Positions 17,160 to 35,062 of a stretch of 64,000 nucleotides of DNA are shown piece by piece. The notes beneath the pieces are model-generated. The model had not been told where the DNA came from. It saw nothing but the letters and a program-made list of their open reading frames with translations, and ran no database searches. Every line of letters begins with the position of its first letter. Position 1 is the stretch's first letter. Made by a program: the position numbers and the translations under genes. The stretch is from Arcobacter nitrofigilis DSM 7299 (GTDB taxonomy: Bacteria; Campylobacterota; Campylobacteria; Campylobacterales; Arcobacteraceae). The stretch is from positions 620,001 through 684,000 of the forward strand of contig NC_014166.1 of assembly GCF_000092245.1 (NCBI RefSeq). Direction: 5' to 3'.

Positions 17160-17504
17160 ATGGATTGGGGTAAAGTAACCTATATATTCTTTTCACTAAT
17201 GTCTTTAACTACAACGGCAGGGTTTTTATATGAACCAAACTCTTTAGCACTATTTTTAGCAGCTGGGGTTAATGTAATATCTACTATTTTAAAATTAGGT
17301 GTTAGAAACTTATTATCTGCAGAATTACTTGCAAGTTCTTTAGTTGCTGATTTACACTTGATACCTGCGTTTATGGTTCTTACTTTTATGGGTGATGAAA
17401 GATTGGCTATAGCTCTTGCTATTGGAGCAATTGTTGCAAATATATTCTCAATAGCCTTAGCACTAATAGAAAGTGCAAAAAGTCAGGAAAAGGATGAGTT
17501 TTAA
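17160..17504 (+). CDS. DUF6394-like four-TM membrane protein
   Basis: The 114-aa protein is mostly hydrophobic, with about four helices and short charged loops (residues ~5-25, 27-45, 52-75 and 80-105). It resembles the Campylobacterota-restricted family I know as DUF6394, of unknown function. A strong AAAAGGATAATC site precedes the ATG. The stop overlaps the leuS start by one base (TAATG), so translation is coupled to leuS. No enzymatic motif is visible. Confidence 0.65.
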
Positions 17505-19969
17505 TGGAGTATAATCCACAAGAGATAGAAAAAAAATGGCAAAACTATTGGTTAGAAAACAATAGCTTTGAACCAAGTGATGATACAAAAAAAGATAAAA
17601 AATATATTTTAAGTATGTTTCCATACCCAAGTGGTAGGATACATATGGGACATGTTAGAAATTATTGTTTAGGTGATGCATTTGCTAGATTTTTTAGAAA
17701 ATCAAATTTCAATGTATTACATCCAATTGGTTGGGATAGTTTTGGAATGCCAGCTGAAAATGCTGCTATTAAGCACAAACTTCATCCTAAAAAATGGACT
17801 TATGAAAACATAGATTACATGAGAAAAGAGCTTCATGGTTTAGGTTTAAGTTTCTCAAAAAACAGAGAATTTGCTACTAGTGATGAACTTTATACAAGAT
17901 GGGAACAAGAATTTATTATCAAGATGTTTGAAGAGGGACTTTTATACAAAAAATCAACAACAGTAAACTGGTGTCCTCATGATTTAACTGTTTTAGCTAA
18001 TGAGCAATTAGAAGAGGGGTGTTGTTGGAGATGTGGTACTCCTGTTGAGCAAAAAGAGATGCCAGGGTATTATGTGGCAATTACAAAATTTGCTCAAGAA
18101 TTACTTGATGATTTAAAAGATCTAGAAGGGTCATGGCCATCACAAGTTCTTACTATGCAAGAGAACTGGATAGGAAGAAGTGAAGGTTTAGAGTTTAGTT
18201 TTGAACTTACAAAAGATGCAAGATATAAATTAAATAAAAATTTTGCTTCATTTGATGTATTTACAACTAGACCTGATACTATTTATGGGGTTTCATATAC
18301 AGCACTTTCACCAGAACATCCAATAGTAAAATATTTACTAGAAAATGAATTATTAGATGAAAATAAACTAAATAAAATAAAAGCTATGCAAAAAGTAAGT
18401 GAAAGAGATAGGGCAACTATGCCTAAAGAAGGTGTTTCTTTAGAATTAGATGTTCTTCATCCATTAACTGGAAAAACAATTCCAGTATGGGTTGCAAACT
18501 TTGTATTGGTATCTTATGGAAGTGGTGCAGTTATGGCAGTACCTGCCCATGACCAAAGGGATTTTGAATTTGCACAAGAGTATGACTTACCAATTGAGCA
18601 AGTAATTGTTGGAAAAGAGGGTGTTATCTCAAATATGAGAGAAGCTTATACTGAACCTGGAACGCTTATTAATTCAGAAGGTTTTACAAACTTAGATAAT
18701 AAAAAAGCACAAAAAGCAATAATTTATCATTTTGAACAAAACTCTTTTGGAACAAAAAAAATTAATTATAAACTAAGAGATTGGGGAGTTTCAAGACAAA
18801 GATATTGGGGAGCACCGATTCCATTTATCCATTGTGATTCTTGTGGTTTAGTTCCTGAAAAAATTGAAAATCTTCCAGTTGCCTTACCAGAAGATGTTGA
18901 GATTACAGGTGAGGGAAATCCCCTTGATAATCACCCAACATGGAAACATACAACTTGTCCAAAATGTGGTAAACCAGCACTAAGAGAGACAGATACTCTT
19001 GATACTTTTGTTCAATCATCTTGGTACTTTTTAAGATATGCAACAAATAATAAAAAATGGAATAGTGTAGGTATTTCAAAAGAAGATAGTGATTATTGGA
19101 TGGATGTTGACCAATATATTGGTGGGATTGAACATGCTATTTTACATCTTCTTTATTCTAGATTTTTCACAAAAGCTTTAAATAAACTAGGGTATACAAA
19201 CTCTAAAGAGCCATTTAAAAAACTTCTTACTCAAGGTATGGTTTTAAAAGATGGGGCAAAAATGTCAAAATCTAAAGGAAATGTTGTAGATCCTGATAAG
19301 ATTGTTGAAAAGTATGGAGCTGATACAGCTAGATTGTTTATGCTTTTTGCTGCGCCTCCTACTAAAGAGCTTGATTGGAATGATAGTGCTGTTGATGGGG
19401 CATTTAAATTTATCAAAAGGTTTACAGCAAAAGTTGAAATGGCTGAGGGTATTTCAATTGAAGATATAAATTCAATTGACCATGATTCTTTAAGTAAAGA
19501 AGAAAAAGAAACTAGAAAAAAAGTTTATGAAGCTTTACAAAAATCAAATGAAGTATTTTCTAAAACTTATGCTTTCAATACTTTAATTGCAGCTTCAATG
19601 GAAGCGCTGAATGCTTTAAATACACAAGACAATAAAACAGTTTGGGCAGAAGGATATTATATTTTAACAAATATTTTAGAGCCTATTATTCCTCACTTAT
19701 GTTGGGAATTATCAAATGAGTTATTTGAATTAAAAAATTTCAATAATGATATAAAAGTAAAAGAAGAGGTTTTTGTATCCGATACTATACCAATAGCTAT
19801 TACCATAAATGGTAAGAAAAGAGCAGAGATAGAAGTTGCTCCAAATGCTTCAAAAGAAGAAGTTTTAGCAATAGCTAAAGAAGCTTCTTCAAAATGGATA
19901 GATGGAAAAGAAATAATAAAAGAAATAGTTGTTCCAAATAAATTGGTAAACTTAGTAATTAAGGGATAA
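17504..19969 (+). CDS. leuS: Leucyl-tRNA synthetase
   Basis: This class I synthetase charges tRNA-Leu. The 821-aa length is normal. The HIGH-type motif appears as [10 protein letters not shown] near residue 45 and KMSKS as AKMSKSKGN near residue 587. A CP1 editing domain lies between them, with TTRPDTIYG and the Asp-containing [10 protein letters not shown]. Zinc-type Cys pairs are present (CPKCG). It is coupled to the upstream small membrane protein and followed 2 nt later by lptE. Confidence 0.96.
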
Positions 19970-19971
19970 TT

Positions 19972-20502
19972 ATGAGATTAAAATCAATTGTATTAGCAGT
20001 TTTGATTGGGCTTGTATTTGTAGCTTGTGGTTATAAACCAGGTTCATATTATGCAAAAAAAGAGATTCAAGGAAAAGTATTTGTTGACCTAAAAGTTAAT
20101 ATAGAAGATCCTAAAAACTCAGTATTAATAAAAGATGCTATGAATGAATTATTAGTTCATAAATTAGATGCAAAATTAGTGAATAAGAAAGAACTAGCTG
20201 ATACAATTGTTGTAGTAAGATTAAACTCTACTAGCTTTGCTACTTTACAATATGATACTGATGGTTATTCTAAACTATATAAAGCAACATCAAGTATAAA
20301 TGTTCAATATAATAATGTAAAACAAAAGTTAAGAAGAAATTTTAATGTTTCTGGTACTTATGATTTTTCTATTGATAGTGGTGGAACGATTTCTGATAGT
20401 AAAAGATTTGAAGCAATTAAGGCTGCAACTTCAAAAGCTTTAGATGAAGTTATTTCAAAAATAGCAATATTATCATTTAAAAAACCTGACCTTGAAGATT
20501 AA
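19972..20502 (+). CDS. lptE: LPS-assembly lipoprotein LptE
   Basis: LptE plugs the LptD barrel and helps insert lipopolysaccharide into the outer membrane. The 176-aa protein starts with a lipoprotein signal peptide ending in LVFVACG, so Cys at about residue 19 would be lipidated. The body is mixed alpha/beta with family-like YKPGSYYAKK after the Cys. Sequence conservation in this family is low, and the leuS-lptE-folC order supports the call. The 3' end overlaps folC by 11 nt. Confidence 0.78.
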   Translation: MRLKSIVLAVLIGLVFVACGYKPGSYYAKKEIQGKVFVDLKVNIEDPKNSVLIKDAMNELLVHKLDAKLVNKKELADTIVVVRLNSTSFATLQYDTDGYSKLYKATSSINVQYNNVKQKLRRNFNVSGTYDFSIDSGGTISDSKRFEAIKAATSKALDEVISKIAILSFKKPDLED

Positions 20503-21661
20503 TTTTAAAGAAATACCTTTAAAAGAGTTTTTAGAATATAAAACTATGTACTATGATAAAATAGATTTTACCATAGTACAAAACTCTTTTGAGCTTTTAA
20601 AACAAGAGATAAAAATACCTTTTATTATCCACATTGTTGGGACAAATGGTAAAGGTACTACAGGAAGATTTTTAGCAAAATATTTATCAAGTATTGGCAA
20701 AGATGTTCTACACTATAGCTCTCCCCATATAACAAAGTTTAATGAAAGAATTTGGATAAATGATTTTGATGTAAGTGATTCACTTCTTGATGAGGCCCAT
20801 AAATTTTTACAAAAGATTTTAGATACACCTTTACTTGAAAAATTAACATATTTCGAATACACAACACTTTTATCATTTTATTTAAGTTCTAATCGAGATT
20901 ATCTCATCTTAGAAGCTGGACTTGGGGGAGAATTTGATGCCACAAATGTTGCTACAAATGACCTCTCTCTTATTACTACAATTGACTTAGATCATCAATC
21001 TTTTCTTGGAAATAGTATAAAAGAGATTTCTTTAACAAAAATGCGAGCTTGTGATAAGGTTATGATTGTAGGTTCTCAAATACATGAAGAAGTTTATTTG
21101 CATGCAAAAATTATTGAAGAAGAGAGAAATATAAAGTTACTAAGCCTTGATGATTTTAAAATTGATGTAAGTAGTTTAAAAAACTTTTTTCCTAAATACC
21201 TATTAAAAAACATCTCTTTAGTTATTGCTACATTAAAATATTTAAACATTGATGTTGATATTAAGAAATTTGAGAATATGAAATTAAATGGTAGGTGTGA
21301 GAAATATAAAAATAATATTACTTTGGATGTAGGACATAATCCTCTTGCAGCAAGAAGTATTTTAGAAGAGTTTAAAAATAAAAAAATTAATTTAATTTAT
21401 AATAGTTATGCAGATAAAGATTATGAAAAAGTTTTACAAATATTAAAACCTATAATAAAAAAGTTGTATATACTACCTTTGGATGATAAAAGAGTAGTAA
21501 AAAAGAGTGATTTAATGATTGTTTGTGCTAATTTGAATATAATAACAGATGTATTTAAAAATGAGATAATCCAAGATGAAGAGTACTTAGTCTTTGGGTC
21601 ATTTTTAGTAATTGAAAAATTTTTGAAGATTGAGAAAAGTTTAGATGAAGATATTAAATAA
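20492..21661 (+). CDS. folC: Folylpolyglutamate / dihydrofolate synthase
   Basis: FolC adds glutamate to dihydropteroate and to folates. The 389-aa protein has the Mur-ligase P-loop VGTNGKGTTGRFL near residue 50, the family motif LEAGLGGEFDATNV near residue 146 and LDVGHNPLAA near residue 277. The proposed start is TTG at 20492, inside the end of lptE. No strong ribosome site is visible, so the start is uncertain. The 3' end overlaps the M23 peptidase gene by 17 nt. Confidence 0.9.
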   Translation: MKINFKEIPLKEFLEYKTMYYDKIDFTIVQNSFELLKQEIKIPFIIHIVGTNGKGTTGRFLAKYLSSIGKDVLHYSSPHITKFNERIWINDFDVSDSLLDEAHKFLQKILDTPLLEKLTYFEYTTLLSFYLSSNRDYLILEAGLGGEFDATNVATNDLSLITTIDLDHQSFLGNSIKEISLTKMRACDKVMIVGSQIHEEVYLHAKIIEEERNIKLLSLDDFKIDVSSLKNFFPKYLLKNISLVIATLKYLNIDVDIKKFENMKLNGRCEKYKNNITLDVGHNPLAARSILEEFKNKKINLIYNSYADKDYEKVLQILKPIIKKLYILPLDDKRVVKKSDLMIVCANLNIITDVFKNEIIQDEEYLVFGSFLVIEKFLKIEKSLDEDIK

Positions 21662-22559
21662 TAGATTAGTAATTACAGTTTCCGATGTAAATAGTACTAA
21701 GTCTTACAATATCCATCAACTTTTTAAAAAAATAATTTTTATTGCGATTATAGTTGCCTTTGTTGTGATTGCTGGTTCTTTTTGGTTTATTTCTTTTTTA
21801 TCAAATGAAATTAGTGATTTCAAAGGTAAAAAAGAGAAAGAAATTGCACTATTAACAGAAAAAGAGAAAAAACTTCAAGCCCAGAATCTTTTTTATTCTA
21901 TGAAAATTAAGGGTAAAGTTAAAGATATTGAAGAACTTAGTAGTAAGTTAGATAGTATAGAAGAAATTGTTGGTTTAAATAGAGATTCAAATGAACAAAT
22001 AGCAATTACAAAGGCAACTTTAACTAAAATAACACCAGCTCAAAAAATGTATATGTTATCAACTATTCCAAATGGTGCTCCTTTACAAAGAATTAGTGTA
22101 TCAGCTAATTTTGGATATCGTATTCACCCTGTAACCCATGAAAAGAAATTTCATAGGGGAATTGATTTAAGAGCACATCTTAAAACTTCAGTTTTTGCAA
22201 CAGCAGATGGAGTTGTAAGATATGTTCAGCCAAGAAATACAGGAGACTATGGAAGAGTTATAATTCTTGCTCATAATTTTGGATTTGAAACAGTGTATGC
22301 ACATTTAAGTGCCACTAAAGTAAAACTTGGTGATGTAATTAAAAAAAATCAGGTCATAGGTATGACAGGAAACTCAGGAAGAAGTACAGGTCCACATTTG
22401 CATTATGAAGTAAGATATGCAAGTATGGTTTTAAATCCTAGAGATTTCATAGATTGGAACTTAAAAAAGTTTAATTCAATATTTAGTAAACAAAGGAGAG
22501 TACAGTGGGAGTATTTGGTAAATCTGATAAAAGAACAACAGAAGCTGGAGCAACTATAA
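21645..22559 (+). CDS. M23-family peptidoglycan endopeptidase (Csd-like)
   Basis: The 304-aa protein has an N-terminal membrane anchor (residues ~25-50), a coiled-coil stretch (residues ~55-110) and a C-terminal LytM domain. The zinc ligands are in FHRGIDL (HxxxD) and HLHYE (HxH), with GNSGRSTGPH between. It would cleave peptidoglycan cross-links. It overlaps a bactofilin gene by 55 nt. Helicobacter csd1-ccmA shows the same pairing, which controls cell curvature, so a cell-shape role is inferred. Which Csd or Pgp paralogue it matches cannot be settled here. Confidence 0.88.
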   Translation: MKILNNRLVITVSDVNSTKSYNIHQLFKKIIFIAIIVAFVVIAGSFWFISFLSNEISDFKGKKEKEIALLTEKEKKLQAQNLFYSMKIKGKVKDIEELSSKLDSIEEIVGLNRDSNEQIAITKATLTKITPAQKMYMLSTIPNGAPLQRISVSANFGYRIHPVTHEKKFHRGIDLRAHLKTSVFATADGVVRYVQPRNTGDYGRVIILAHNFGFETVYAHLSATKVKLGDVIKKNQVIGMTGNSGRSTGPHLHYEVRYASMVLNPRDFIDWNLKKFNSIFSKQRRVQWEYLVNLIKEQQKLEQL

Positions 22560-22963
22560 TTGCTAAAGGAACTTGCATCATAGGTGGAATTTCTACTCAA
22601 GGTACAGTTCATATAGATGGAAAATTTGAGGGTGTAATACTTGAAGCTGATGCAATTTCAATTGGGAAAACTGGCGAAGTAATCGGAGATATTAAAGCAA
22701 ATCATGTAGTTGTAAGTGGTTTTTTTGATGGTAAGATTGATTGTAATGTTATGCAAGTTTTAGCAGCTGGAAAAGTTATCGGTGATTTTACATATAATGA
22801 TTTGATTATTGAAGAAGACGCTAAGTTTGAGGGAAGAGTTATTAGAAAAAATTCTGAACTAAAAAGTAGATATAATGAAATAGAAAATAGAATTGGTGGT
22901 TTTGTATCAACAAAAGAAGAAGATCTTTCATATGAAAAACCAAGTACAGAAAAGATTAAATAA
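22505..22963 (+). CDS. ccmA: Bactofilin (CcmA-like)
   Basis: Bactofilins polymerise into filaments that position cell-wall enzymes. The 152-aa protein has a central beta-helical core (residues ~15-115) with repeating GxVxG-type turns such as GTVHIDGKFEG and GEVIGDIKANHVVVSG. Charged tails flank the core. The start is GTG at 22505 with AAAGGAGAG upstream. It lies largely out of frame inside the end of the M23 gene, so the two are coupled. Its own 3' end overlaps the helicase gene by 32 nt. Confidence 0.88.
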   Translation: MGVFGKSDKRTTEAGATIIAKGTCIIGGISTQGTVHIDGKFEGVILEADAISIGKTGEVIGDIKANHVVVSGFFDGKIDCNVMQVLAAGKVIGDFTYNDLIIEEDAKFEGRVIRKNSELKSRYNEIENRIGGFVSTKEEDLSYEKPSTEKIK

Positions 22964-25052
22964 GCTCTACGAAGACAAACTAAATATTGAAAAAGAGATA
23001 GCTCTACTAGAAAAAGAACTAAATAAAAAAGAGTTAAACAAAGATGAAAAGATAGAGATATTTAGAACTTTGTTTATTTCTCGAGCAGATGTATATTTGA
23101 AAAAATGGATTAGCAAAGACTCCTCAAAAGAGTCTTATTTTCCTGTTACTAAAACTTTCCAAGGAAGTGATTACTTACCCCTTCTAAATAATGATATTGA
23201 ACAGCATTTAAGAGGACAAGTTCAACTTGCAACTTATAATATTTCCATAAGTAATAAATGTAAATATGGTGTTTTAAAAATCTCAAAAAATGATATTTCA
23301 AAATTACAAACAATCTTACAAGATTTAAATTTAATAGGCAATTATCAGTTTGATTCTTATAATGATGTTTTGGTTTGGTTTTTTTATGAAGAGAATATCC
23401 AAGCACGTGATACAAAAGAGTTTTTGCAAAATATAATCAAAAGTGCAAATATAAGTGCAAAAATATATCCAAATCTAGACTTTGTCAATAGTTCAAACTT
23501 TGGTTCATATCTTGAATTACCTTTGCATTTAAAATTAAGACAGAGTAATAAAACTGTTTTTTTTGATTGTAATAATTTAACTCCTTACGAAGATCAATGG
23601 GATTATTTAAAAAATGTGAAAAAAATATCTAAAAATGTAGTACTGAAAATAGCAAAATCAAATGAACAAAAGCCTCTTCAAAGTTGGGAAAATCAAAAAC
23701 AAAATGCGGTTGAATATCCAAATTTTGCCTTAGATATTACAATCTATGATTATGTGTATATTAAAAGTAAAAACTTATCAAAATCTTTTTTAAATGAATT
23801 GAAAAATTTAGCAGTTTTTGATAACCCTCAAATAAAGATTTTATTGAGTTTACGAAAACCACTTTTTAATACTCCAAAACAGATAAAGAATTATGAAGAA
23901 GATGAAACTTATTTAAAACTTCCAAGGGGAGTTTTAGGTTTTGTAATAAAAATTTTAAAACAAAATGGCGTTAAATATCTACTTGATGATAAAAGAGTAG
24001 AAAATAAACAAGAGTATCCAAAAGTAAAATATGAGCTAAGGGATGATCAAAATTTAGCAATATCAAAAGTGATTAAGAAAGATTTTTCAATTTGTGTTGC
24101 TCCCCCTGGTTTTGGTAAAACTTTAATTGGTGCTAAAATGATAGAGTTAAGAGGGGTAAATACTTTAATAATAGTAAATAAAAATATGCTTTTAGACCAA
24201 TGGATTCAAAGATTTGTTGATTATTTTGGAATGGATAAAAAGGATATAGGCTTTTTAGGTAAAAGCAAAAATAAACTAACTGGAAAACTTGATATTGCTA
24301 CTATGCAAAGTTTAAAAAACCAACCAGAAATTATAAAAGAGTACTCTTTTGTAATAGTTGATGAGTGTCATCATATTCCAGCTATTACGTTTGAATTGAT
24401 AATAAAACTCTTTTGTGGTAAATATGTTTTAGGTCTTAGTGCAACACCTAATAGAAAAGATGGATTAGAACCAATTCTTTTTCAACAATTAGGACAAATC
24501 TCATATGAATACAAAAAGAAAAGAACACTAACTCATAGAATAAAAGTTATAAATACTGATTTTAAGAGTCAAGCAGATAATTATGCTCAATTAATCAATG
24601 AAATTACAATAGATAAAAGTAGAAATGAGTTGATTATTAATGAAGTGAAACAGTATATTGATAGGAAGATTCTTATACTAACAGATAGAATTGAACACAT
24701 AAATATTTTAGAAGAATTATTAATTAAAAATAATTTAAAATATGTTAGTATACATGGAAGTTTAAGTAAAAAAGAACAACAAGAAAATTTAGAACAAATA
24801 GAAAACAGCAATTTAATTCTTGCTACAACTTCTTATTTTGGGGAAGGTATAGATTTCCCTCATCTAAATACAATTATTTTTGTAACACCAATTTCTTATT
24901 ATGGAAGATTGGTACAATACCTAGGTAGAATAGGTCGAGATGGACAAGAGTGTTTAGCAATTGACTTGCTTGACTCAAAAAATGCAATGTTAAATTCAAC
25001 CTTTAAAAAAAGGCTTGAAGGCTATAAACAGATGCATTATAAAATTTATTAG
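22932..25052 (+). CDS. SF2 helicase with N-terminal degenerate TOTE-type primase domain
   Basis: The protein is about 706 aa from ATG 22932, which overlaps the bactofilin gene. Residues ~75-225 follow the layout of the archaeo-eukaryotic primase domain of TOTE conflict systems: LPLLNNDIEQHLRGQ, a central strand pair, SYLELPLHLKLRQ and FFDCNNLTPYEDQWDYLK. The expected catalytic acidic strand after the HLxG segment reads GVLKISKND, and the later His-bearing strand reads DVLVWFFY, so the active-site residues seem lost. Residues ~365-706 are a full helicase: Walker A APPGFGKT, DECHH, GLSATPNR, GEGIDFPHLNT and QYLGRIGRDG. No nuclease domain is visible. The role is unknown; DNA repair or defence is possible. 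Confidence 0.75.
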   Translation: MKNQVQKRLNKLYEDKLNIEKEIALLEKELNKKELNKDEKIEIFRTLFISRADVYLKKWISKDSSKESYFPVTKTFQGSDYLPLLNNDIEQHLRGQVQLATYNISISNKCKYGVLKISKNDISKLQTILQDLNLIGNYQFDSYNDVLVWFFYEENIQARDTKEFLQNIIKSANISAKIYPNLDFVNSSNFGSYLELPLHLKLRQSNKTVFFDCNNLTPYEDQWDYLKNVKKISKNVVLKIAKSNEQKPLQSWENQKQNAVEYPNFALDITIYDYVYIKSKNLSKSFLNELKNLAVFDNPQIKILLSLRKPLFNTPKQIKNYEEDETYLKLPRGVLGFVIKILKQNGVKYLLDDKRVENKQEYPKVKYELRDDQNLAISKVIKKDFSICVAPPGFGKTLIGAKMIELRGVNTLIIVNKNMLLDQWIQRFVDYFGMDKKDIGFLGKSKNKLTGKLDIATMQSLKNQPEIIKEYSFVIVDECHHIPAITFELIIKLFCGKYVLGLSATPNRKDGLEPILFQQLGQISYEYKKKRTLTHRIKVINTDFKSQADNYAQLINEITIDKSRNELIINEVKQYIDRKILILTDRIEHINILEELLIKNNLKYVSIHGSLSKKEQQENLEQIENSNLILATTSYFGEGIDFPHLNTIIFVTPISYYGRLVQYLGRIGRDGQECLAIDLLDSKNAMLNSTFKKRLEGYKQMHYKIY

Positions 25053-25059
25053 GATTTAT

Positions 25060-26688
25060 ATGTTAGGAATAATTGTATCTACAATTTTTATTGCAATATT
25101 TGTAAACTTATTATTAAAAAAATTCCAATTGCCAACTATTATTGGATATATATTTACAGGTACAATCATAGCTTATTTGTTTGGTTTACATGAAGCAGCA
25201 GTTAATAACCATGATCTAAAAGAAATAGCAGAGTTTGGTGTAGTATTTTTAATGTTTACAATTGGATTAGAGTTTTCAGTAAATGCACTAATTAGGATGA
25301 AAAGAGAAGTTTTTTTTACAGGAACTTTACAAATAATTATTACAACTTTGATTGTTGTTCTTATCTCTTTTTATATTTTAAATTTTGATTTTCAAACTTC
25401 TATGATAATAGGAACTGCTTTATCTTTATCTTCAACAGCCATTGTTTTAAAAACATATAATGAAACCAGAGATATCAAAAAAAGACATGGACAAAGGGTT
25501 TTAGGAATTTTGATTATGCAAGATATTGCAGTAATTCCAATACTTTTAATGATATCAATTTTTACAACAAACTCTGAAAATAGTGTTTTATACATAGTTT
25601 TACAAACAACTATTGCAGCAGTTATTCTAATAGGAATATTATATTTAAGTGGTAAGTATCTGCTTGAACCATTTTTAACCCATGTTAGTGAAACAAATTC
25701 AGAAGAACTTTTTGTGGGATCTGTTTTATTAATAGCAATTGGGGCTTCATATATGGCTCATTATTTTGGGTTTTCTTACTCTCTTGGAGCTTTTATTGCT
25801 GGTATGATGATTTCAGAGACAAAGTTCAAACATCAAGTAGAATCAGATCTTATTCCATTTAGAAATTTATTATTAGGGGTATTCTTTGTAACTGTTGGTA
25901 TGCAAATAAATTTTGAAATAATTTATTTACATTTATTTACAATACTACTTTTATTACCTATTTTGATGGTTTTAAAATATTGCATAATTTATTTAATAGT
26001 TAGAATTGATGATACCAAAAGAGTAGCTTTTAAAACAGCTTTTTCACTAATACAAATAGGTGAGTTCTCCCTCGCAATATTAGAGTTAGCAAGAAGTGCA
26101 AACTTGCTAAATGCAACTCACACCCAAATTTTAATTGTAACTATTGTTTTATCAATGATTTTAACACCAATTGCACTTAAAAATTTATCAAAAATTGCTA
26201 GTTCTTTATTGCCAGATGATATTATGGATACAACTAATACCTTAGCTGTTGATAAAGACTTAAAAGGGCATGTGGTAGTTCTTGGGTATGGACACTTGGG
26301 ACAAGAGATTGTACGGGAGTTAAAAGAGCTTAATAATGATTATATTATCATCGAAAATAAAATTCTTTTTTATAAAATGGGAAAAGATGATAATGAACCA
26401 ATTATTTTTGGAAATGCAGCACATAAACATATTTTAGAATCTGTGAATATTAAAACTTCTTGTGCAGTTATAGTAGCCATTGATAATCCAGAACAATTGA
26501 GAATTGTTTGTGAAAGTATTAATGAGTTGACAAAAAATACTAAAACAATAGTAAAAATCACAAAAACAGAAGATATGAAAAATCTAGAAGGTTTACACTT
26601 AGAACATATAATTGTGGATGATCAAGTAGTCGCAAAAGCTTTAGTTGACGAAACTAGAGTTTGCAGTATTGATTTTTCACATAAATAA
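25060..26688 (+). CDS. Kef-type cation:proton antiporter with RCK domain
   Basis: The 542-aa inner-membrane protein has about 12 helices of the CPA2 Na+/H+ exchanger fold (residues ~1-390), then a TrkA-N/RCK nucleotide-binding domain with VLGYGHLGQEIV near residue 406. The membrane part contains the CPA2 features LMFTIGLEFS and YSLGAFIAGMMISET. It would exchange K+ or Na+ for protons. I chose ATG 25060, which has AGGA 5 nt upstream; the open frame extends back into the helicase gene. Ion selectivity is not readable. A hairpin overlaps its stop codon. Confidence 0.86.
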   Translation: MLGIIVSTIFIAIFVNLLLKKFQLPTIIGYIFTGTIIAYLFGLHEAAVNNHDLKEIAEFGVVFLMFTIGLEFSVNALIRMKREVFFTGTLQIIITTLIVVLISFYILNFDFQTSMIIGTALSLSSTAIVLKTYNETRDIKKRHGQRVLGILIMQDIAVIPILLMISIFTTNSENSVLYIVLQTTIAAVILIGILYLSGKYLLEPFLTHVSETNSEELFVGSVLLIAIGASYMAHYFGFSYSLGAFIAGMMISETKFKHQVESDLIPFRNLLLGVFFVTVGMQINFEIIYLHLFTILLLLPILMVLKYCIIYLIVRIDDTKRVAFKTAFSLIQIGEFSLAILELARSANLLNATHTQILIVTIVLSMILTPIALKNLSKIASSLLPDDIMDTTNTLAVDKDLKGHVVVLGYGHLGQEIVRELKELNNDYIIIENKILFYKMGKDDNEPIIFGNAAHKHILESVNIKTSCAVIVAIDNPEQLRIVCESINELTKNTKTIVKITKTEDMKNLEGLHLEHIIVDDQVVAKALVDETRVCSIDFSHK

Positions 26689-26711
26689 GATACTTTTTAA
26701 GTATCTTATTT
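26683..26711. terminator. Bidirectional terminator shared by convergent genes
   Basis: AAATAAGATACTT and AAGTATCTTATTT form a perfect 13-bp stem with a TTT loop. The A and T tracts at the two ends make it work in both directions. It contains the stop codons of both the antiporter (26686-26688) and the acyltransferase (26706-26708), so the two genes share one compact terminator. Confidence 0.8.
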
Positions 26712-28412
26712 CATATATCTAGATTTTTGTTTATCTTTTACTTTATTAATTTCAACTACAATCAGACCATCTACGCAGTTTGAAAAATCAGGGTCAACAT
26801 TAAAACCTTGAAAGTTTACTCCACCTTCTTCACATAGTTCAGAGTATTGTTTATATAGTGTTGGAACAGCAATTCCCATATTTGAAAGGGCTGTTTTAAG
26901 TATTTTAAAATCAGTTTTTTTGTCATTTAATTCAAACATAGCTTTTAATGATATTAAATCAATAGAGTACTGATAAGGAATTTTTGATTCTAATAGATTT
27001 TTTTCACTTGAATAATAGTGTGAATAATAAAATACAAGCATATCTTTTGCAATTTTAGGCAAAGAAGCTGAAATAGAAACAGGACCATACATATATTTTA
27101 TTTGTGGATATGTTTTTAAATATGCTCCAATCCCATACCAAAGATAATCTAAAGCTCGACTACCCCAATATTTTGGTTGAACAAAACTACGTCCTAGTTC
27201 AATTGAGTCATTTAAATAAGGAAGAAATTCATCTTTATATTCAAATAAAGTACTTGAATAAAATCCAGAAATTCCTAAATTATTATTTATAAATTCACCA
27301 TTTCCAATTCTATAAGAACCAACTATTTCTAAAGCTTCTCTATCCCATAAGATAATGTGTTCATAATAAATATCATATTTATCAGTATCTCTTTTTTTGT
27401 TTATTCCTTCACCTACACTTCTAAAAGATAACTCCCTAAGCCTTCCAAGCTCTTTTAAGACAATTGAATCATCTGTATAGTTATATAAATAAATTATTTT
27501 ACCATCTGCAGTTTCCCCAATAATTTTTGAACTTTTTAATTCATTCATAATATCTTGTCTTTTTTCAGGGTGAGCAATTGCTTTTTGAGTTACAAAAAAA
27601 GACTTTTTCCCTTTTTTTAAAGCATAAAGATGTTTTTTATAAAGGGTTAAGAGATATCTTTTATTAATACCTTTTGGCATAATATTTTCATTTGGAATAA
27701 TTTCACCAATTTTTATACTTATTTTTTTTGATTTTTTCTTAAACATTTCATGTGATAAAAGCAGAGTTGAAAATGTCTTATTTAATATAGAAATTGTGTA
27801 AAATATTTTAGAATTTTTACCATCAACTAAGATTGGTAAAATTGGTGCATTACAATGTTGGGCAAAACTCAAAAAACCTTTACTCCACATAGGATCTTTT
27901 ATTCCTTTTGGCGTTGCTCGGCTAACTTCTCCTGCTGGGAAGATTATGATTGCTTCATCATTATTTAGTGCATCATAGATAGCTTTTATATCTTTTTTAC
28001 TTTGTCTTCTTTTATAATTATCTATTGGGACAAATAAAGAACTAAGTGCTTCTATTCCTGCTAAAAAATCATTTGCAACAATCTTTACATCTTTTCTAAC
28101 TTTTCCTACAAGTTTTAATAAACATAAAGCATCCAATCCACCTAAGGGATGATTTGCTATGATTACTACTTTTCCAGAACTTGGTATATTTTGTATGTCA
28201 TTACTAGAAACAGTATAGTCAAAATCAAAATTATCTAAAACTGCATCTACAAATTCAAAACCTTTTTTATGTGCATTTGTTTGTAAAAACTCATTGATTG
28301 AGTCTTCATGTACTACTTTTTTCGCAAGTGAAATTAAAGATTTATTTATAAAAGATGACTCTAAATCAAGTTTTGGAAATTTTTTCTTTATCTCTTTTTC
28401 TACATTAACCAT
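26706..28412 (-). CDS. Two-domain acyltransferase, ornithine-lipid synthase OlsF-like
   Basis: The 568-aa protein joins two acyltransferases. Residues ~60-270 are a PlsC-like lysophospholipid acyltransferase of the hemolysin-linked type, with the NHPLGGLD catalytic box and FPAGEVSR. Residues ~310-540 are a GNAT-like N-acyltransferase with ELGRSFVQPKYW, as in OlsB. The same pairing in the bifunctional OlsF of other bacteria makes ornithine lipids by N- then O-acylation, so that product is inferred here. No signal peptide is seen; it would act at the inner membrane face. Another amino acid could be the lipid head. Confidence 0.72.
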   Translation of the reverse strand: MVNVEKEIKKKFPKLDLESSFINKSLISLAKKVVHEDSINEFLQTNAHKKGFEFVDAVLDNFDFDYTVSSNDIQNIPSSGKVVIIANHPLGGLDALCLLKLVGKVRKDVKIVANDFLAGIEALSSLFVPIDNYKRRQSKKDIKAIYDALNNDEAIIIFPAGEVSRATPKGIKDPMWSKGFLSFAQHCNAPILPILVDGKNSKIFYTISILNKTFSTLLLSHEMFKKKSKKISIKIGEIIPNENIMPKGINKRYLLTLYKKHLYALKKGKKSFFVTQKAIAHPEKRQDIMNELKSSKIIGETADGKIIYLYNYTDDSIVLKELGRLRELSFRSVGEGINKKRDTDKYDIYYEHIILWDREALEIVGSYRIGNGEFINNNLGISGFYSSTLFEYKDEFLPYLNDSIELGRSFVQPKYWGSRALDYLWYGIGAYLKTYPQIKYMYGPVSISASLPKIAKDMLVFYYSHYYSSEKNLLESKIPYQYSIDLISLKAMFELNDKKTDFKILKTALSNMGIAVPTLYKQYSELCEEGGVNFQGFNVDPDFSNCVDGLIVVEINKVKDKQKSRYMK

Positions 28413-28533
28413 TTGTGTCCTTTTGTTATTTGATATTTTATATTTAATTGATTACATGATGGTTACTCTTTTTTTTCTTTTTTCCTTTGTTATATTATGG
28501 TAAACTCCACAAAAAAAGTTAAAGGAGAAGTTT

Positions 28534-29241
28534 TTGAACAAATCATTAGTTACAAATTTACTATCTTTATTGGTAGTTGTTTTAGGTTTTGTTTTAAAAC
28601 AAGATATGCTTTTTATGGTAGGGCTTTTTGCCCTAAGTGGAGCTATAACAAATGCCCTTGCAATTCATATGCTTTTTGAAAAAGTTCCTTTTTTATATGG
28701 TTCTGGTGTTGTTGAAAATAGATTTGAAGAGTTCAAAAAAGGAATCCATTCTTTAATAATGGAACAATTCTTTACAAAAGAAAATTTGCAAAAATTTTTT
28801 GAAGAAGAGCTTACTTCGAAAAAATCAAATTTTGACTTATCTCCAATATTAGAAAAAACAGATTTTACACCAGCTTTTGACTCATTAAAACAAGCAGTTT
28901 TAGAGTCACCATTTGGAAATATGTTAGGTATGTTTGGTGGAGAAGCTGCATTAGAGCCATTAAAAGAACCTTTTGTTGGGAAACTAAAAGGTGCCATTGT
29001 TACTATTTCAAAGAATGAATCTTTTCAAAACTCTTTACATGAGAGCTTAGGTTCATCAAATATAAGTGATGATATTTATGAAAAGGTTAGCTTAATAGTA
29101 AATAGTAGACTAGAAGAATTAACTCCTGTGATGGTTAAAGAAATTGTTCAAAAGATGATAAAAGAACACCTTGGCTGGTTAGTTGTTTGGGGTGGAGTTT
29201 TTGGTGGACTTATTGGTTTTTTTTCAACTTTAATAAAGTAG
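28534..29241 (+). CDS. DUF445-family membrane protein
   Basis: The 235-aa protein has two hydrophobic N-terminal helices (residues ~5-50) with the motif GAITNALAIHMLFEKVP, typical of DUF445/YheB-like proteins. A helical middle and a final membrane helix (LGWLVVWGGVFGGLIGFFSTL) follow. The start is TTG with the strong site AAAGGAGAAG immediately upstream. A TATATT at 28491-28496 is a possible -10. Both termini anchor in the membrane. The function of the family is not established. Confidence 0.75.
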   Translation: MNKSLVTNLLSLLVVVLGFVLKQDMLFMVGLFALSGAITNALAIHMLFEKVPFLYGSGVVENRFEEFKKGIHSLIMEQFFTKENLQKFFEEELTSKKSNFDLSPILEKTDFTPAFDSLKQAVLESPFGNMLGMFGGEAALEPLKEPFVGKLKGAIVTISKNESFQNSLHESLGSSNISDDIYEKVSLIVNSRLEELTPVMVKEIVQKMIKEHLGWLVVWGGVFGGLIGFFSTLIK

Positions 29242-29253
29242 TTTTTATGTAAA

Positions 29254-29285
29254 GTGAATAACACTTTTTGATAAGTGTTATTCAC
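29254..29285. terminator. Hairpin between convergent DUF445 and chemoreceptor genes
   Basis: GTGAATAACACTT and AAGTGTTATTCAC form a perfect 13-bp stem with a 6-nt loop, lying between the two converging stops. T-rich sequence follows on the minus strand but is weak on the plus strand. It is probably a bidirectional terminator. Confidence 0.6.
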
Positions 29286-29316
29286 ATAAGCTTACTGCAA
29301 AAATTTAGAATAAATA

Positions 29317-31584
29317 TTAACCTAAATTTTTACCATCAAAATTATTTTTACTTACTCCTATAACAACATTGTCAGATATCTCTTTAGTTTTCTTTGCAAT
29401 ATCATTTGTTTCCTCTGCAATAGCTGCATTTTCTTGTGTAACTTTATCTAGCATATTAACTGCATCTGCAATTTGTTGTATTCCTAAGTTTTGTTCATTT
29501 GCCGCTGCTGCAACATCGTTAATTAATTTGCTAGTTTCTATAATTCTATTTTCTAAAGTAGTAAATCCTTCAATCATATTAGAACTAATATTTTTACCAT
29601 TATTAGCTTTTTCTGTAGCAGTTTCAACTAAACTTTTTATATCTTTTGCAACTTCTGCACTTCTTGAAGCTAAGTTTCTCACTTCTTGTGCAACAACTGC
29701 AAAACCTTTTCCAGCTTCTCCTGCAGTTGCAGCTTCAACAGCTGCATTTAGAGATAAGATATTTGTTTGAAATGCTATTTGATCAATCATAGTTATAGCT
29801 TCACTTATATTTAGAACTGTATTATTTATATCATCCATAGAAGTTGCTGTATCAGTTGCTAATTGTTTACCTGTAGTAGCTGAATCTTTTGTTTCATTTG
29901 ATATAGAATGCATTTCTTGTGCTTTAATATTTGTTTGTTCAATATTACTTGTAATCTCTTCAATTGAAGCTGCTGTCTCTTCTAATGACGCAGCTTGTTT
30001 AGTTGCATTGCTACTAATTGTTCTAACACTATTTGATAGATTATCAGCACTTTCTTTTAACGAAACACCATCTTCTTGACTATCTTGTAGCATTTTTGTA
30101 ATCATTTCATTCATGTGAATGATTTCTTTACCTATTTTACCAGAATCAGCTCCAAGCTTCATAGTAAAATCTCTATTTGAATAACTCTCTAGGGTATGAA
30201 TAATATTATTTATATCTTTACCAACTTGGTGTTCCAATTGTTCTAACATATGATTTAAAATCTCTTTTAATTCATTTAATGAATCAGTAGAAGTTACTTT
30301 TGTTACTCTACTATCAAATTTACCTTCAGTAATGGTATTTGCAATACCTTTAACATCTTCAATTAGAGCCATATCTTGTTGTGTAGCTGTTTTTATATTT
30401 TTTACATTTTCATTAATAGAGTGAGCCATTCTTCCAAATTCGCATGTTGTATTTATATCAATCTCTTCTGTTGCAGATTTTTTTGTATTTAAGAATTCAA
30501 AAAAACTTTCCAAGCCAGATGATATTTTTTTAAGATAAATATTTAATTGTTTAACTGAAAGTAGAATAATTATTGCAATTACAATTAAACTTATTATTGA
30601 AGATATGATAGATACATTTCTAATAAAATTAGCATTTGCAAGGTATTCTTCTTTTGGTGCAGATATAACAAAAGTCCAATTTGTACCCGTATCTTTCAAA
30701 CTAAATGGTTGAGAATAATAAATTGATGATTGACCAGTAATCAATGAATCTTTAAAGAAAAAATAAGATTCTCCTTTTTTACTTTTTTCAAGCATATTTG
30801 CATAATCTTTATCATTTTTTACAATATCAAGCATTTTCTTATTTTGAAATTCTTTTTTTGGATGCCCTACTATTATGCCATTATTGTCAACAATAATCCC
30901 ATATCCATTTTTATATAATTTAATACGAGAAGCTAAGTTAGCTAAACCCTTTAAGAGAAAATCAATTCCAGCAGAACCAATAAATTCACCATCTTTATAC
31001 ATAGGAACAGAAACTGTTACAACTAATTGGTCAACACCATTAATTTTCCAAAAGTAAGGTTTTGTTATAAAAGTTTTACCAGCTTCTTTAGCTCCTTTAA
31101 TCCATCCTATTTTTTCATCATAAGGGGTACCTGGAGCAACTGATATTCCATTTTTAGATTTTGCAACAAAGGGATGAAAAATTCCAAGTTTATTATATGC
31201 ACTTCCCTCTTGTGGATTTTCTACTTTTGCTGTTAATTTTTCACCATATTTAGGACTATACCAAATACTATTAATAGTGTCATTTTCATTTAAAATAGAC
31301 TTTTCTAAAGAAATCATTTCCTCTGGATTTATTTGTGCATTGTTAACTGCTGCTGCTTGTATTCTAGCGGCAAATACTTGTGCAACAGAAATTGCGTTAT
31401 CGAGTTCCCCTTTAATTTCAATTGCATTTTTTGAAGCAAATGTTTTTCTAAATGTTTCTGCATCTTCTTGCGCAGCCTTGTAAGAATAATTTACAATGAC
31501 TATTGAAGAAAGAGATACAACAACAAAAACAGTTCCAAGTATTTTCAGTAGAAGTTTTTTCCCAAAACTAGATTTTTTTTCCAT
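29317..31584 (-). CDS. Methyl-accepting chemotaxis protein with dCache domain
   Basis: The 755-aa transmembrane receptor would feed the CheA/CheW pathway. An N-terminal helix (residues ~12-30) is followed by a double Cache periplasmic sensor (residues ~35-320) with VSVPMYKDGEFIGSAGIDF and a second lobe starting YGIIVDNNGIIVGHP. A second membrane helix lies near residue 330. The signalling domain carries the conserved hairpin QTNILSLNAAVEAATAGEAG and VVAQEVRNLASRS. Cache receptors often bind amino or organic acids, but the ligand is unknown. AAAAGGAATTTCTT precedes the ATG. No CheW-binding pentapeptide tail is seen. Confidence 0.9.
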   Translation of the reverse strand: MEKKSSFGKKLLLKILGTVFVVVSLSSIVIVNYSYKAAQEDAETFRKTFASKNAIEIKGELDNAISVAQVFAARIQAAAVNNAQINPEEMISLEKSILNENDTINSIWYSPKYGEKLTAKVENPQEGSAYNKLGIFHPFVAKSKNGISVAPGTPYDEKIGWIKGAKEAGKTFITKPYFWKINGVDQLVVTVSVPMYKDGEFIGSAGIDFLLKGLANLASRIKLYKNGYGIIVDNNGIIVGHPKKEFQNKKMLDIVKNDKDYANMLEKSKKGESYFFFKDSLITGQSSIYYSQPFSLKDTGTNWTFVISAPKEEYLANANFIRNVSIISSIISLIVIAIIILLSVKQLNIYLKKISSGLESFFEFLNTKKSATEEIDINTTCEFGRMAHSINENVKNIKTATQQDMALIEDVKGIANTITEGKFDSRVTKVTSTDSLNELKEILNHMLEQLEHQVGKDINNIIHTLESYSNRDFTMKLGADSGKIGKEIIHMNEMITKMLQDSQEDGVSLKESADNLSNSVRTISSNATKQAASLEETAASIEEITSNIEQTNIKAQEMHSISNETKDSATTGKQLATDTATSMDDINNTVLNISEAITMIDQIAFQTNILSLNAAVEAATAGEAGKGFAVVAQEVRNLASRSAEVAKDIKSLVETATEKANNGKNISSNMIEGFTTLENRIIETSKLINDVAAAANEQNLGIQQIADAVNMLDKVTQENAAIAEETNDIAKKTKEISDNVVIGVSKNNFDGKNLG

Positions 31585-31793
31585 AAGAAATTCCTTTTAA
31601 TTAGTTAGCATAATAAATACAAAAAACTTGAATACAAATATCATTATAGTTAAAGTTTTAAAAAATAATTATAAAAAGAAATTTTTTTCTTTTATTTTTC
31701 CAATTTTCTAAATCTCAAATTAATGCTTATTTAAATACAATACTTTTTTAAAAATGATATAAACTATCATGTAGTAGTACCTTAGGAGATAAA

Positions 31794-32090
31794 TTGGAAA
31801 ATATTGAATTAGTAGTTATATTAGATGTAGAAAATTTAAAAGATAAAGAAAAGTTTGAAAAGCACTTAAAAAAAGAAGGATTTAATATTGTTCCAGAAGA
31901 AGAATTTGTTTATACTGGCATTTCAAGTACAACAACCTTTTCTACAAAAGCATATATTTTAGAAGTATTTAAAAAAGGTTTACAAAAAACTGAATTTGAT
32001 TCTTGTAATATGGTTTTTTTACTTAATGAAACTCCTTATCCTCCATACATTTATGATAAAACAACAAATGATTTTGAAGAGGTTAAATAG
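31794..32090 (+). CDS. Small conserved-looking protein translated with mfd
   Basis: The 98-aa protein starts with TTG at 31794 behind a strong TTAGGAG site and ends 2 nt before mfd. The pattern of strands and helices (ELVVILDV, helix, NIVPEEEFVYTG, helix, NMVFLLNE) suggests a ferredoxin-like alpha/beta fold. There are no catalytic motifs, signal peptide or membrane segment. I do not recognise the family. Tight coupling suggests it is made with Mfd, though it may only share the transcript. Confidence 0.6.
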   Translation: MENIELVVILDVENLKDKEKFEKHLKKEGFNIVPEEEFVYTGISSTTTFSTKAYILEVFKKGLQKTEFDSCNMVFLLNETPYPPYIYDKTTNDFEEVK

Positions 32091-32092
32091 TA

Positions 32093-35062
32093 TTGAATAG
32101 CCTATTTGAATTTTTTAAAGAGAAAAATGATTGTAAACTTCTAATAGTAAGTGATGATAAAGAGGCACAAGAAGCCTTTGATGTATTATCTTATAATCAA
32201 AAAAAACCCTTTGTATTAGCTGATTTTAGAGCAAATTTTGGAGATGATTTACTCTCTTTTTCAGAAGAGTTACAAAATATAACTAAAACTTTAAATGAGT
32301 TTTATTCTTATAAAAAAGAGAATAAAGTTCTAGTTGTACCTTTACGAACAGCTTCATATAAAATGCCTGTAGAGAAGTGCTTTGACTCTTTTAAAATAGA
32401 GTTTGCTTCAACTATTGATTTGGATAAATTAAAAGATAAACTTTATAATTGGGGATACTATTTTGTAGATATTGTGACAAGTGAGGGAGAAGTATCTCTT
32501 CGAGGGGATATACTTGATATTTGTCCTTTGGGAGCTAGCAAAGGTTTTAGAGTAAGTCTGTTTGATGATGAGGTTGAAAGTATTAGAGAGTTTGATATTG
32601 AAGATCAAAAATCAGCAAAAGAAGAGATAGACTCTTTTAGTATTACTCCTGCTTTTTTGGCTTTAAATGAAGATGAGATAGATAGAATAAATGAAGAGTT
32701 AGAGAGTGTTGAAAGTGATGCTTTTATAAAAGATATACACTCTTTAGGATTTTGGTATTTGGATGATTTGGGAGAGTATTTACCTTCTAAGTTTAATTCA
32801 TATATTACTTATAATGCCCTTGATGAACTTGATGAAGCATATATCTTTGAATCAAAAAGAATAGATAAAGAGAAGTTTTTAACTCTTCCAAAGATTCCAA
32901 AAGCAAAAAAATACCAAATAATAAATCCAGCAAATGTAAAAGAGTTTTTAACTTTTCATGATGGCAAAAAACATACTATCATTTCAACAACTGAAGCCAA
33001 GGTAAAAAGTTTTGATTTAGACTTAGCTGACAAAAAAATAAAATATATTTTTGAACCATATATTATAAATCTTGTAAGTGACGATGAGGTAATTATTTCT
33101 TTAAATAAAGAGATAAAGAAAAAAAGAAAAAAGAAAATTAAACTAGTTCTCGATGAACTTCTTGTAAATGATTTTGTTGTGCACGAACAACATGGTATTG
33201 GACAATACAAAGGAATAGAACCTGTTGTTGTAATGGGAGCAAAAAGAGACTTTGTAATAGTTGCATATGCAAATGAAGATAAACTTTTAATACCAGTTGA
33301 AAATATTGATCTCATAGATAGATATGTGGCAGATGGTAGTTCTTATGCTGTTGTTGACACTTTAGGTAAAGGAAGTTTTGCCAAACTAAAAGATAAAGTA
33401 AAAGATAGACTTTTTGCCATTGCAAATGATATTATAAAATTAGCAGCTGCACGTGAACTTGTAAATGGTATAAAAATAAATTGTGATAAAAAAATATTAA
33501 AAGATTTTAGCACTAGTGCCGGTTTTGATTATACTAAAGATCAAAAAAGAAGTATAAATGAGCTATTTGATGATTTAAGTAGTGGAAAAGTGATGGATAG
33601 ATTGCTTTCTGGTGATGTTGGTTTTGGCAAAACTGAAGTTGCGATGAATGCACTTTTGGCTGTTATTTTAGATGGACATCAAGCTCTTTTTGTATGTCCT
33701 ACTACTTTGTTGGCTTCTCAACATTTTCATAGTATGAAAAAAAGGTTTGATGAGTATGGCATAAGAATGGCTCAACTTGATGGAAAAACAACTGCAAAAG
33801 AAAAAACCTATGTGAAAAAAGCACTAGAAAGTGGAGATATAGATTTAGTAGTTGGAACTCACTCTTTACTTGATATTAAAACAAAAGATTTAGCCTTGGT
33901 TATAATTGACGAAGAGCATAAATTTGGTGTAAAACAAAAAGAAAAATTAAAAGAACTAAGAGAAGATGTTCATATTTTCTCAATGAGTGCAACTCCAATT
34001 CCAAGAACTCTAAATTTAGCCCTATCGAAACTAAAAGGTATGAGTTCTCTTTTGACTCCTCCAACTGAGAGATTAGGAGTAAGAACTTATGTTAAAGAGT
34101 TTGAAGAAAAACTAATCAAAGAGATAGTTTTAAGGGAAAAAAGAAGAGGTGGACAACTTTTTTATGTGCATAATAATATCGCTTCTATGGAAGCAAAAAA
34201 AGCAGATATTCAAGAGATTTTACCAAATATAAAAATTGAGATGATTCACTCTAAAATTACTCAAGTAAAAGCAGAAAAATTAATCGAAGATTTCAATGAT
34301 GGGAAATTTGATATATTACTTGCTACTTCAATAGTAGAATCAGGACTTCATCTACCAAATGCAAACTCAATGATAATTGATGGTGCAGATAGATTTGGAA
34401 TAGCAGATTTACATCAACTTCGAGGACGAGTAGGGCGAGGTCATAAAGAAGGTTTTTGTTATTTTATAGTTGAAGATAAGAAAAAAATTACAAGTGATGC
34501 TATCAAAAGATTACTTGCATTAGAGTCGAATTCTTACCTAGGAAGTGGAACAGCCTTAGCCCACCAAGACTTAGAAATAAGAGGTGGTGGAAATATTATA
34601 GGTGAAGCTCAAAGTGGACATATCAAACAAATAGGATATGGTTTATATCTAAAAATGTTAGAAGATACACTTGCTATTTTAAGTGGTGAATCAAAAGAAG
34701 AGAGTCAAGTAGTAGATATAAAACTTGCTATTTCCGCTTTTATTTCAAATGATTATATTGTTGAAGATAGAGTAAGGTTAGAACTTTATAGACGGCTTGG
34801 AAAAGCAAAATCAAAAGAAGCTATTTATGAAATTGAAGAAGAGATGGAAGATAGATTTGGTAAGCCAGATATTCCAACAAAACAGTTCTTAGAACTTATT
34901 ATGATAAAAGTTTTAGCTTTACAAAAAGAGATAAAAACAGTATCAAGTTATGAGATGAATGTAACTTTTACAAAAAATGATGATATAAAAGAGACAATAA
35001 AATCACCAAGTAAAGATGATGATGATATTATTGCTACAACATTAAAGTACTTACGAAAATAA
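32093..35062 (+). CDS. mfd: Transcription-repair coupling factor
   Basis: Mfd removes RNA polymerase stalled at lesions and recruits UvrA. The 989-aa protein is shorter than the E. coli form (1148 aa). Order: a UvrB-like N-terminal region, a CarD-like polymerase-binding domain with VVHEQHGIGQYKGIEPV near residue 365, the helicase motor with GDVGFGKTEVA near residue 505, DEEHKFGV and SMSATPIPRTL, the translocation region RGRVGRG, and a reduced C-terminal TRCF domain. The start is TTG at 32093, directly after the small upstream gene. In Campylobacter mfd also lies near this gene cluster. Confidence 0.94.
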   Translation: MNSLFEFFKEKNDCKLLIVSDDKEAQEAFDVLSYNQKKPFVLADFRANFGDDLLSFSEELQNITKTLNEFYSYKKENKVLVVPLRTASYKMPVEKCFDSFKIEFASTIDLDKLKDKLYNWGYYFVDIVTSEGEVSLRGDILDICPLGASKGFRVSLFDDEVESIREFDIEDQKSAKEEIDSFSITPAFLALNEDEIDRINEELESVESDAFIKDIHSLGFWYLDDLGEYLPSKFNSYITYNALDELDEAYIFESKRIDKEKFLTLPKIPKAKKYQIINPANVKEFLTFHDGKKHTIISTTEAKVKSFDLDLADKKIKYIFEPYIINLVSDDEVIISLNKEIKKKRKKKIKLVLDELLVNDFVVHEQHGIGQYKGIEPVVVMGAKRDFVIVAYANEDKLLIPVENIDLIDRYVADGSSYAVVDTLGKGSFAKLKDKVKDRLFAIANDIIKLAAARELVNGIKINCDKKILKDFSTSAGFDYTKDQKRSINELFDDLSSGKVMDRLLSGDVGFGKTEVAMNALLAVILDGHQALFVCPTTLLASQHFHSMKKRFDEYGIRMAQLDGKTTAKEKTYVKKALESGDIDLVVGTHSLLDIKTKDLALVIIDEEHKFGVKQKEKLKELREDVHIFSMSATPIPRTLNLALSKLKGMSSLLTPPTERLGVRTYVKEFEEKLIKEIVLREKRRGGQLFYVHNNIASMEAKKADIQEILPNIKIEMIHSKITQVKAEKLIEDFNDGKFDILLATSIVESGLHLPNANSMIIDGADRFGIADLHQLRGRVGRGHKEGFCYFIVEDKKKITSDAIKRLLALESNSYLGSGTALAHQDLEIRGGGNIIGEAQSGHIKQIGYGLYLKMLEDTLAILSGESKEESQVVDIKLAISAFISNDYIVEDRVRLELYRRLGKAKSKEAIYEIEEEMEDRFGKPDIPTKQFLELIMIKVLALQKEIKTVSSYEMNVTFTKNDDIKETIKSPSKDDDDIIATTLKYLRK

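Follow-up and report, generated by a model that had tools for sequence, protein, structure and literature searches.

A core SF2 helicase of Arcobacteraceae with a Prim-Pol-like domain lacking its active-site motifs

Gene, protein and genomic setting

The window, a 64,000-nucleotide stretch from Arcobacter nitrofigilis DSM 7299, carries on its forward strand an ORF encoding a 706-aa product (22932..25052, +, from the ATG to the end of the stop codon), in which a coiled coil, an AEP (Prim-Pol) domain of apparently dead type, an XPB-like DNA-binding domain and an SF2 helicase follow one another. Its start overlaps by 32 nt the upstream gene ccmA (bactofilin; 22505..22963, +), and just past its stop an ATG at 25060 opens a gene for a Na+/H+ (KefB-like) antiporter with TrkA_N (25060..26688, +); mfd lies about 7 kb downstream (32093..35062, +). 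The gene order leuS, lptE, folC-like, M23, ccmA, helicase, antiporter is common to the window and its relatives, and the helicase neighbors in the window are housekeeping genes. A Pfam scan of ten neighbors at 17504-35062, of which the folC-like one had no match at all, revealed no cas families and hence no cas adjacency of the kind that marks a CAPP (CRISPR-associated Prim-Pol), and no toxin-antitoxin neighbors occurred among the genes examined around the helicase. Promoter-like sites were no more numerous than in shuffled sequences, and terminator-like sites were slightly more so (4 vs 1.5). In the literature we found no paper on this gene, nor any on transposon essentiality in Arcobacter.

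An initial, sequence-only reading of the window had described the gene as tightly coupled to cell-shape genes in a core operon. The position holds, but a functional tie to cell shape is not supported: two copies (L088 and L097, in G028 and G006) follow folC with no M23 or ccmA hit in the interval, and several of the helicase-only copies are found at other loci. We also considered the helicase as a replacement for mfd in an ancestral slot after ccmA and rejected this, mfd being found in 87 of 88 good genomes of the family and in the window itself.

The protein begins with a helix or coiled coil (residues 2-30; 22935..23021, +; model helix H2-30) that is retained in orthologues devoid of the AEP domain (L022-L025). 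The AEP domain comprises an N-terminal subdomain (residues 39-104; 23046..23243, +), which includes the sequence HLRG, and a palm or catalytic part (residues 105-240; 23244..23651, +) that is eroded in sequence with its fold retained. The next region (residues 265-360; 23724..24011, +) aligns structurally with the DNA-binding portion at the N terminus of XPB and of UvsW, and two RecA-like helicase domains with intact motifs complete the chain (residues 361-706; 24012..25049, +). The Pfam AEP-TOTE family (PF22548) matches residues 39-238 (E=5.4e-50; 170.6 bits, the curated cut-off being 27), ResIII and Helicase_C cover residues 366-671, and the N-terminal part is called PrimPol by PADLOC and, independently, by NCBIfam. 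The primase-like domain followed by an SF2 helicase in one chain, the TOTE-type layout proposed from sequence, is thus borne out, being the domain order of CAPP-Helicase and TOTE proteins; the strength of the profile match also disposes of the possibility, raised at the outset, that no AEP similarity would be found. Both landmarks named in that reading are in the protein, HLRG at residues 92-95 (usually HLEG or HLQG in active homologues) and YEDQWDYLK at residues 219-227. What it had called a linker is indeed there, but in the whole-chain model it contains the XPB-like DNA-binding domain.

That model (pTM 0.54, so that the arrangement of domains is uncertain) has the XPB-Bax1-DNA complex and UvsW as the closest structures to its helicase part, residues 265-696 matching 6p4f_C at Z 27.2 and residues 265-527 matching 1rif_A at Z about 22.5. 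The helicase motifs APPGFGKT, VDECHH, LSATP, TTSYFGEGID and QYLGRIGR are intact, and Walker A, DExH, SAT and motifs V and VI, together with an N-terminal DNA-binding domain, place the protein among XPB-like SF2 translocases.

The AEP domain: active-site motifs and fold

The alignment combined the window protein, its Arcobacteraceae orthologues, and intact homologues drawn from Campylobacterota and from other phyla. All 44 intact homologues from outside the Arcobacteraceae core clade have the motif I DxD, the motif II SxSGxGxH and a DR ahead of LFPxQD. At the motif I position, where active copies read (I/V/F)DxD, the window protein has GVLKISKND (residues 113-121; 23268..23294, +), with K116 and S118 in place of the two Asp; at motif II, SGNGxHxWxFF of active copies is replaced by DVLVWFFY (residues 145-152; 23364..23387, +), with L147 in place of the His and one residue deleted from the nucleotide-binding loop. 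These are the strands that had been singled out from the sequence as those of the missing acidic and His residues, and the comparison with the 44 intact homologues upholds that assignment. In the motif III region (residues 172-184, ANISAKIYPNLDF; 23445..23483, +), the loop bearing this motif's Asp in active copies has been lost: a deletion located roughly between residues 172 and 174 shortens the segment corresponding to ...SYDRLFPNQD..., in which conservation suggests that the Asp of SYDR is the motif III residue. The three motifs by which the AEP or Prim-Pol superfamily is defined (PMC10345425), namely motif I hhhDhD/E, motif II sxH and motif III hD/E, are therefore all missing.

The orthologues bear out what had been expected of them, with the primase residues lost and the helicase retained. 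Among 62 Arcobacteraceae core copies, a set that includes some duplicate assemblies and leaves out one truncated intact protein (L104), none has the acidic pair at motif I and none the motif III Asp, the segment being deleted or replaced, and in all 62 the helicase motifs are intact. Since the loss is common to every core orthologue examined, it is not due to chance. Five of the 62 (L011, L017, L021, L133 and L158) are dead copies in which a His still occupies the motif II position and all the acids are gone.

The AEP domain was also modeled with AlphaFold (pLDDT 94), and the model superposes on the MsCAPP Prim-Pol of Marinitoga (7nqd_B) at Z 24.0, with an rmsd of 2.1 A over 193 residues. By predicted structure the domain thus has the Prim-Pol fold, an N-terminal alpha/beta part and an RRM-like palm, and the primase fold appears to have been retained although its metal- and nucleotide-binding residues have all been lost. 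The other outcome that the sequence-only reading had named as refuting, a model with the DxD and His preserved elsewhere in the fold, likewise did not occur, and no alternative for either was found at the active-site positions of the window protein. Compared with MsCAPP (PDB 7nqd, 7nqf, 7p9j), with which it shares the AEP fold at 24% identity, the window protein has none of the DxD, His and acidic motif III region that MsCAPP possesses.

We weighed whether the primase might be cryptically active through other acids, such as a Glu in place of the first Asp of motif I, or might have another nucleotidyl-transfer activity. A Glu does occupy the D1 position in 47 of the 62 orthologues, and the His persists in five, but the acidic pair is present in none, and the window protein combines Lys and Ser at motif I with a Leu where the His should be and with loss of the motif III loop. 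Replacement of the two motif I Asp in MpCAPP (D177A/D179A) abolished all activity (PMC8211822), and we regard cryptic catalysis as highly improbable.

Distribution, descent and selection

Of 88 good Arcobacteraceae genomes, 80 carry the gene. A tree was built from the helicase part with other phyla as the root. In it the dead and AEP-less copies all belong to a single clade (support 100/100); the catalytically intact Campylobacterota copies, themselves only weakly grouped (88/56), are its neighbors, and both lie within a larger Campylobacterota clade (100/100). On this topology the catalytic loss traces to a single event in the Arcobacteraceae ancestor. In one sublineage the AEP domain has been shortened or removed in frame, and because the shortened copies (L027-L029) and the AEP-less copies (L022-L024, L026) cluster together inside the dead clade (98/95), the domain was removed after its death. 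One AEP-less gene (L081, in G013) still lies 3' of ccmA, indicating removal in place.

Most sister families sampled have M23-ccmA or folC immediately ahead of mfd, with the helicase slot empty, which points to insertion of the helicase in the Arcobacteraceae line. From the same ccmA-mfd or folC-mfd adjacency, the block of antiporter, acyltransferase/GNAT, DUF445 and MCP genes would have been inserted with the helicase or later.

The intact Campylobacterota copies occupy different surroundings. Eight of them (L061, L064-L066, L113, L117, L119 and L126) are immediately preceded by AbiEi/AbiEii, RelB/YafQ or AAA_14/DUF4143 genes, which suggests a recurrent association; these toxin-antitoxin-type neighbors were identified by Pfam scan for L061, L113, L117 and L126, and by ORF sizes for the others. 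Related proteins are also encoded on plasmids (173 records, with 91 matching across most of the length). In four Aliarcobacter genomes the core copy is accompanied by a second one from the active clade. An intact-clade copy in an Aliarcobacter genome (L064, in G349:C2) is split into two frames, whereas that genome's core copy is whole. One genome (G008), whose core copy likewise has no AEP domain, carries a second helicase-only gene (L100 / L165, in G008:C6) whose identity to the active Campylobacterota clade is 61%.

The sequence-only reading had proposed a domesticated defence protein in which the helicase was kept and the primase site lost. Domestication is well supported, by the single vertical clade, its presence in 80 of the 88 genomes, the insertion between ccmA and mfd, and the intact relatives found beside toxin-antitoxin or AAA_14/DUF4143 genes and on plasmids; the ancestor in defence, for its part, is suggested by the family name and by those neighborhoods. 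Alternatively, the protein may be a defence protein still, its dead primase sensing foreign or phage DNA or replication intermediates on which the helicase then acts, and its core position reflecting fixed immunity. The family name does refer to conflict systems, and the active relatives do adjoin AbiE, RelB/YafQ or AAA_14/DUF4143 genes and reside on plasmids. Set against this are fixation in the family as a single clade, housekeeping neighbors with no partner effector adjacent, a slowly evolving helicase, and the second, active-clade copies that accompany the core copy in Aliarcobacter. We consider continued service in defence unlikely.

Selection on the dead domain was assessed from pairwise comparisons, in which its dN/dS ranged from 0.02 to 0.24, indicating purifying selection, though relaxed. 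The ratio dN(AEP)/dN(HEL) had a median of 1.9 among dead copies (18 pairs, not all phylogenetically independent) and of 1.05 among active copies (6 pairs; Mann-Whitney p 0.001). The relaxation is uneven along the domain: mean identity over residues 39-104 is 65% in dead and 66% in active copies, and in the palm it is 45-50% in dead copies vs 59-63% in active ones. Sequence comparisons thus show the gene to have been inherited vertically under purifying selection, and the pattern within the domain would be expected if binding, not catalysis, were the reason for its retention. These data also bear on the notion that the dead domain is decaying baggage, with selection acting on the helicase only. 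Evolution of the domain at about twice the helicase rate, relative to active copies, and its loss in one sublineage would fit; dN/dS far below 1 in every pair, intact frames across most of the family, and an N-terminal subdomain conserved as in active copies would not, making mere baggage an improbable account.

Relation to known systems and a possible role

Prim-Pols hold DNA through N-terminal motifs, with no need of metal (PMC10345425), and by analogy with these DNA-contact motifs the ligand of the conserved N-terminal subdomain may be DNA. We favor, as the probable reading, a DNA translocase of core genome maintenance that descends from a Prim-Pol-helicase of the TOTE/CAPP-Helicase type and is furnished with a non-catalytic pseudoprimase. 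Judged by fold and context, the XPB/UvsW-like motor would spend ATP on translocation along branched or forked DNA, or on its remodeling, our best guess being in replication or repair, and the pseudoprimase would, without catalysis, hold the template strand or provide a docking site for a partner. Such grip or docking in place of catalysis would account for a DNA-contacting N-terminal half that was kept while the catalytic palm drifted; one sublineage would later have become able to do without the domain. Counting against this explanation, conservation of the N-terminal subdomain may serve folding or protein contact instead of DNA binding, and the AEP domain is dispensable in the one lineage that lives without it. 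XPB-like motors are also employed in restriction and other defence, which tells against a role in genome maintenance.

More tentatively, and with somewhat less than even confidence, we suggest that the whole family runs core genome maintenance on a pseudoenzyme: a mobile conflict-system Prim-Pol would have lost catalysis once, been kept on an XPB-like motor as its clamp for the template strand, and been deleted afterward in one sublineage, with live, dead, shortened and absent stages all visible today. Domestication would then have left a graded record in living genomes, from intact copies beside toxin-antitoxin-type genes, through dead full-length copies in a core operon and shortened ones, to copies with the domain removed in frame, and the role of a Prim-Pol domain without catalysis becomes directly testable. 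The Arcobacteraceae, which include animal- and food-associated species, also gain a conserved helicase.

TOTE-type AEP-helicases (PF22548; CAPP_A "CAPP-Helicase" type, e.g., that of Neobacillus notoginsengisoli, PMC8211822) share with the window protein the order of coil, AEP domain, linker and SF2 helicase, the same Pfam domains and 30-44% identity over the length. The window protein differs from them in its destroyed active site and in being encoded by a core gene that is inherited vertically within a housekeeping operon, with no CRISPR or toxin-antitoxin neighbors among the genes examined. The archaeal XPB (XPBII-Bax1, PDB 6p4f) and T4 UvsW resemble it in the DNA-binding domain and two RecA domains (residues 264-700; Z 27.2 and about 22.6), whereas the window protein has an additional N-terminal pseudoprimase and no Bax1-like nuclease among the neighboring genes examined.

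A further AEP-fold protein, DUF1882 (HP0184, PDB 2atz), is widespread in Campylobacterota, although it was not found in this genome. Its crystal structure aligns with the AEP model of the window protein (Z 12.2, 151 residues), and its motif I is altered, reading IDYN; unlike the window protein, it stands alone, is about 180 aa long and keeps a motif II-like His. Weak AEP-TOTE matches in sister families, considered as split orthologues from the same operon, proved instead to be DUF1882 proteins at other loci. These ORFs of about 180 aa (L070-L079, e.g., L070:6656-7195) look like a second AEP-fold family.
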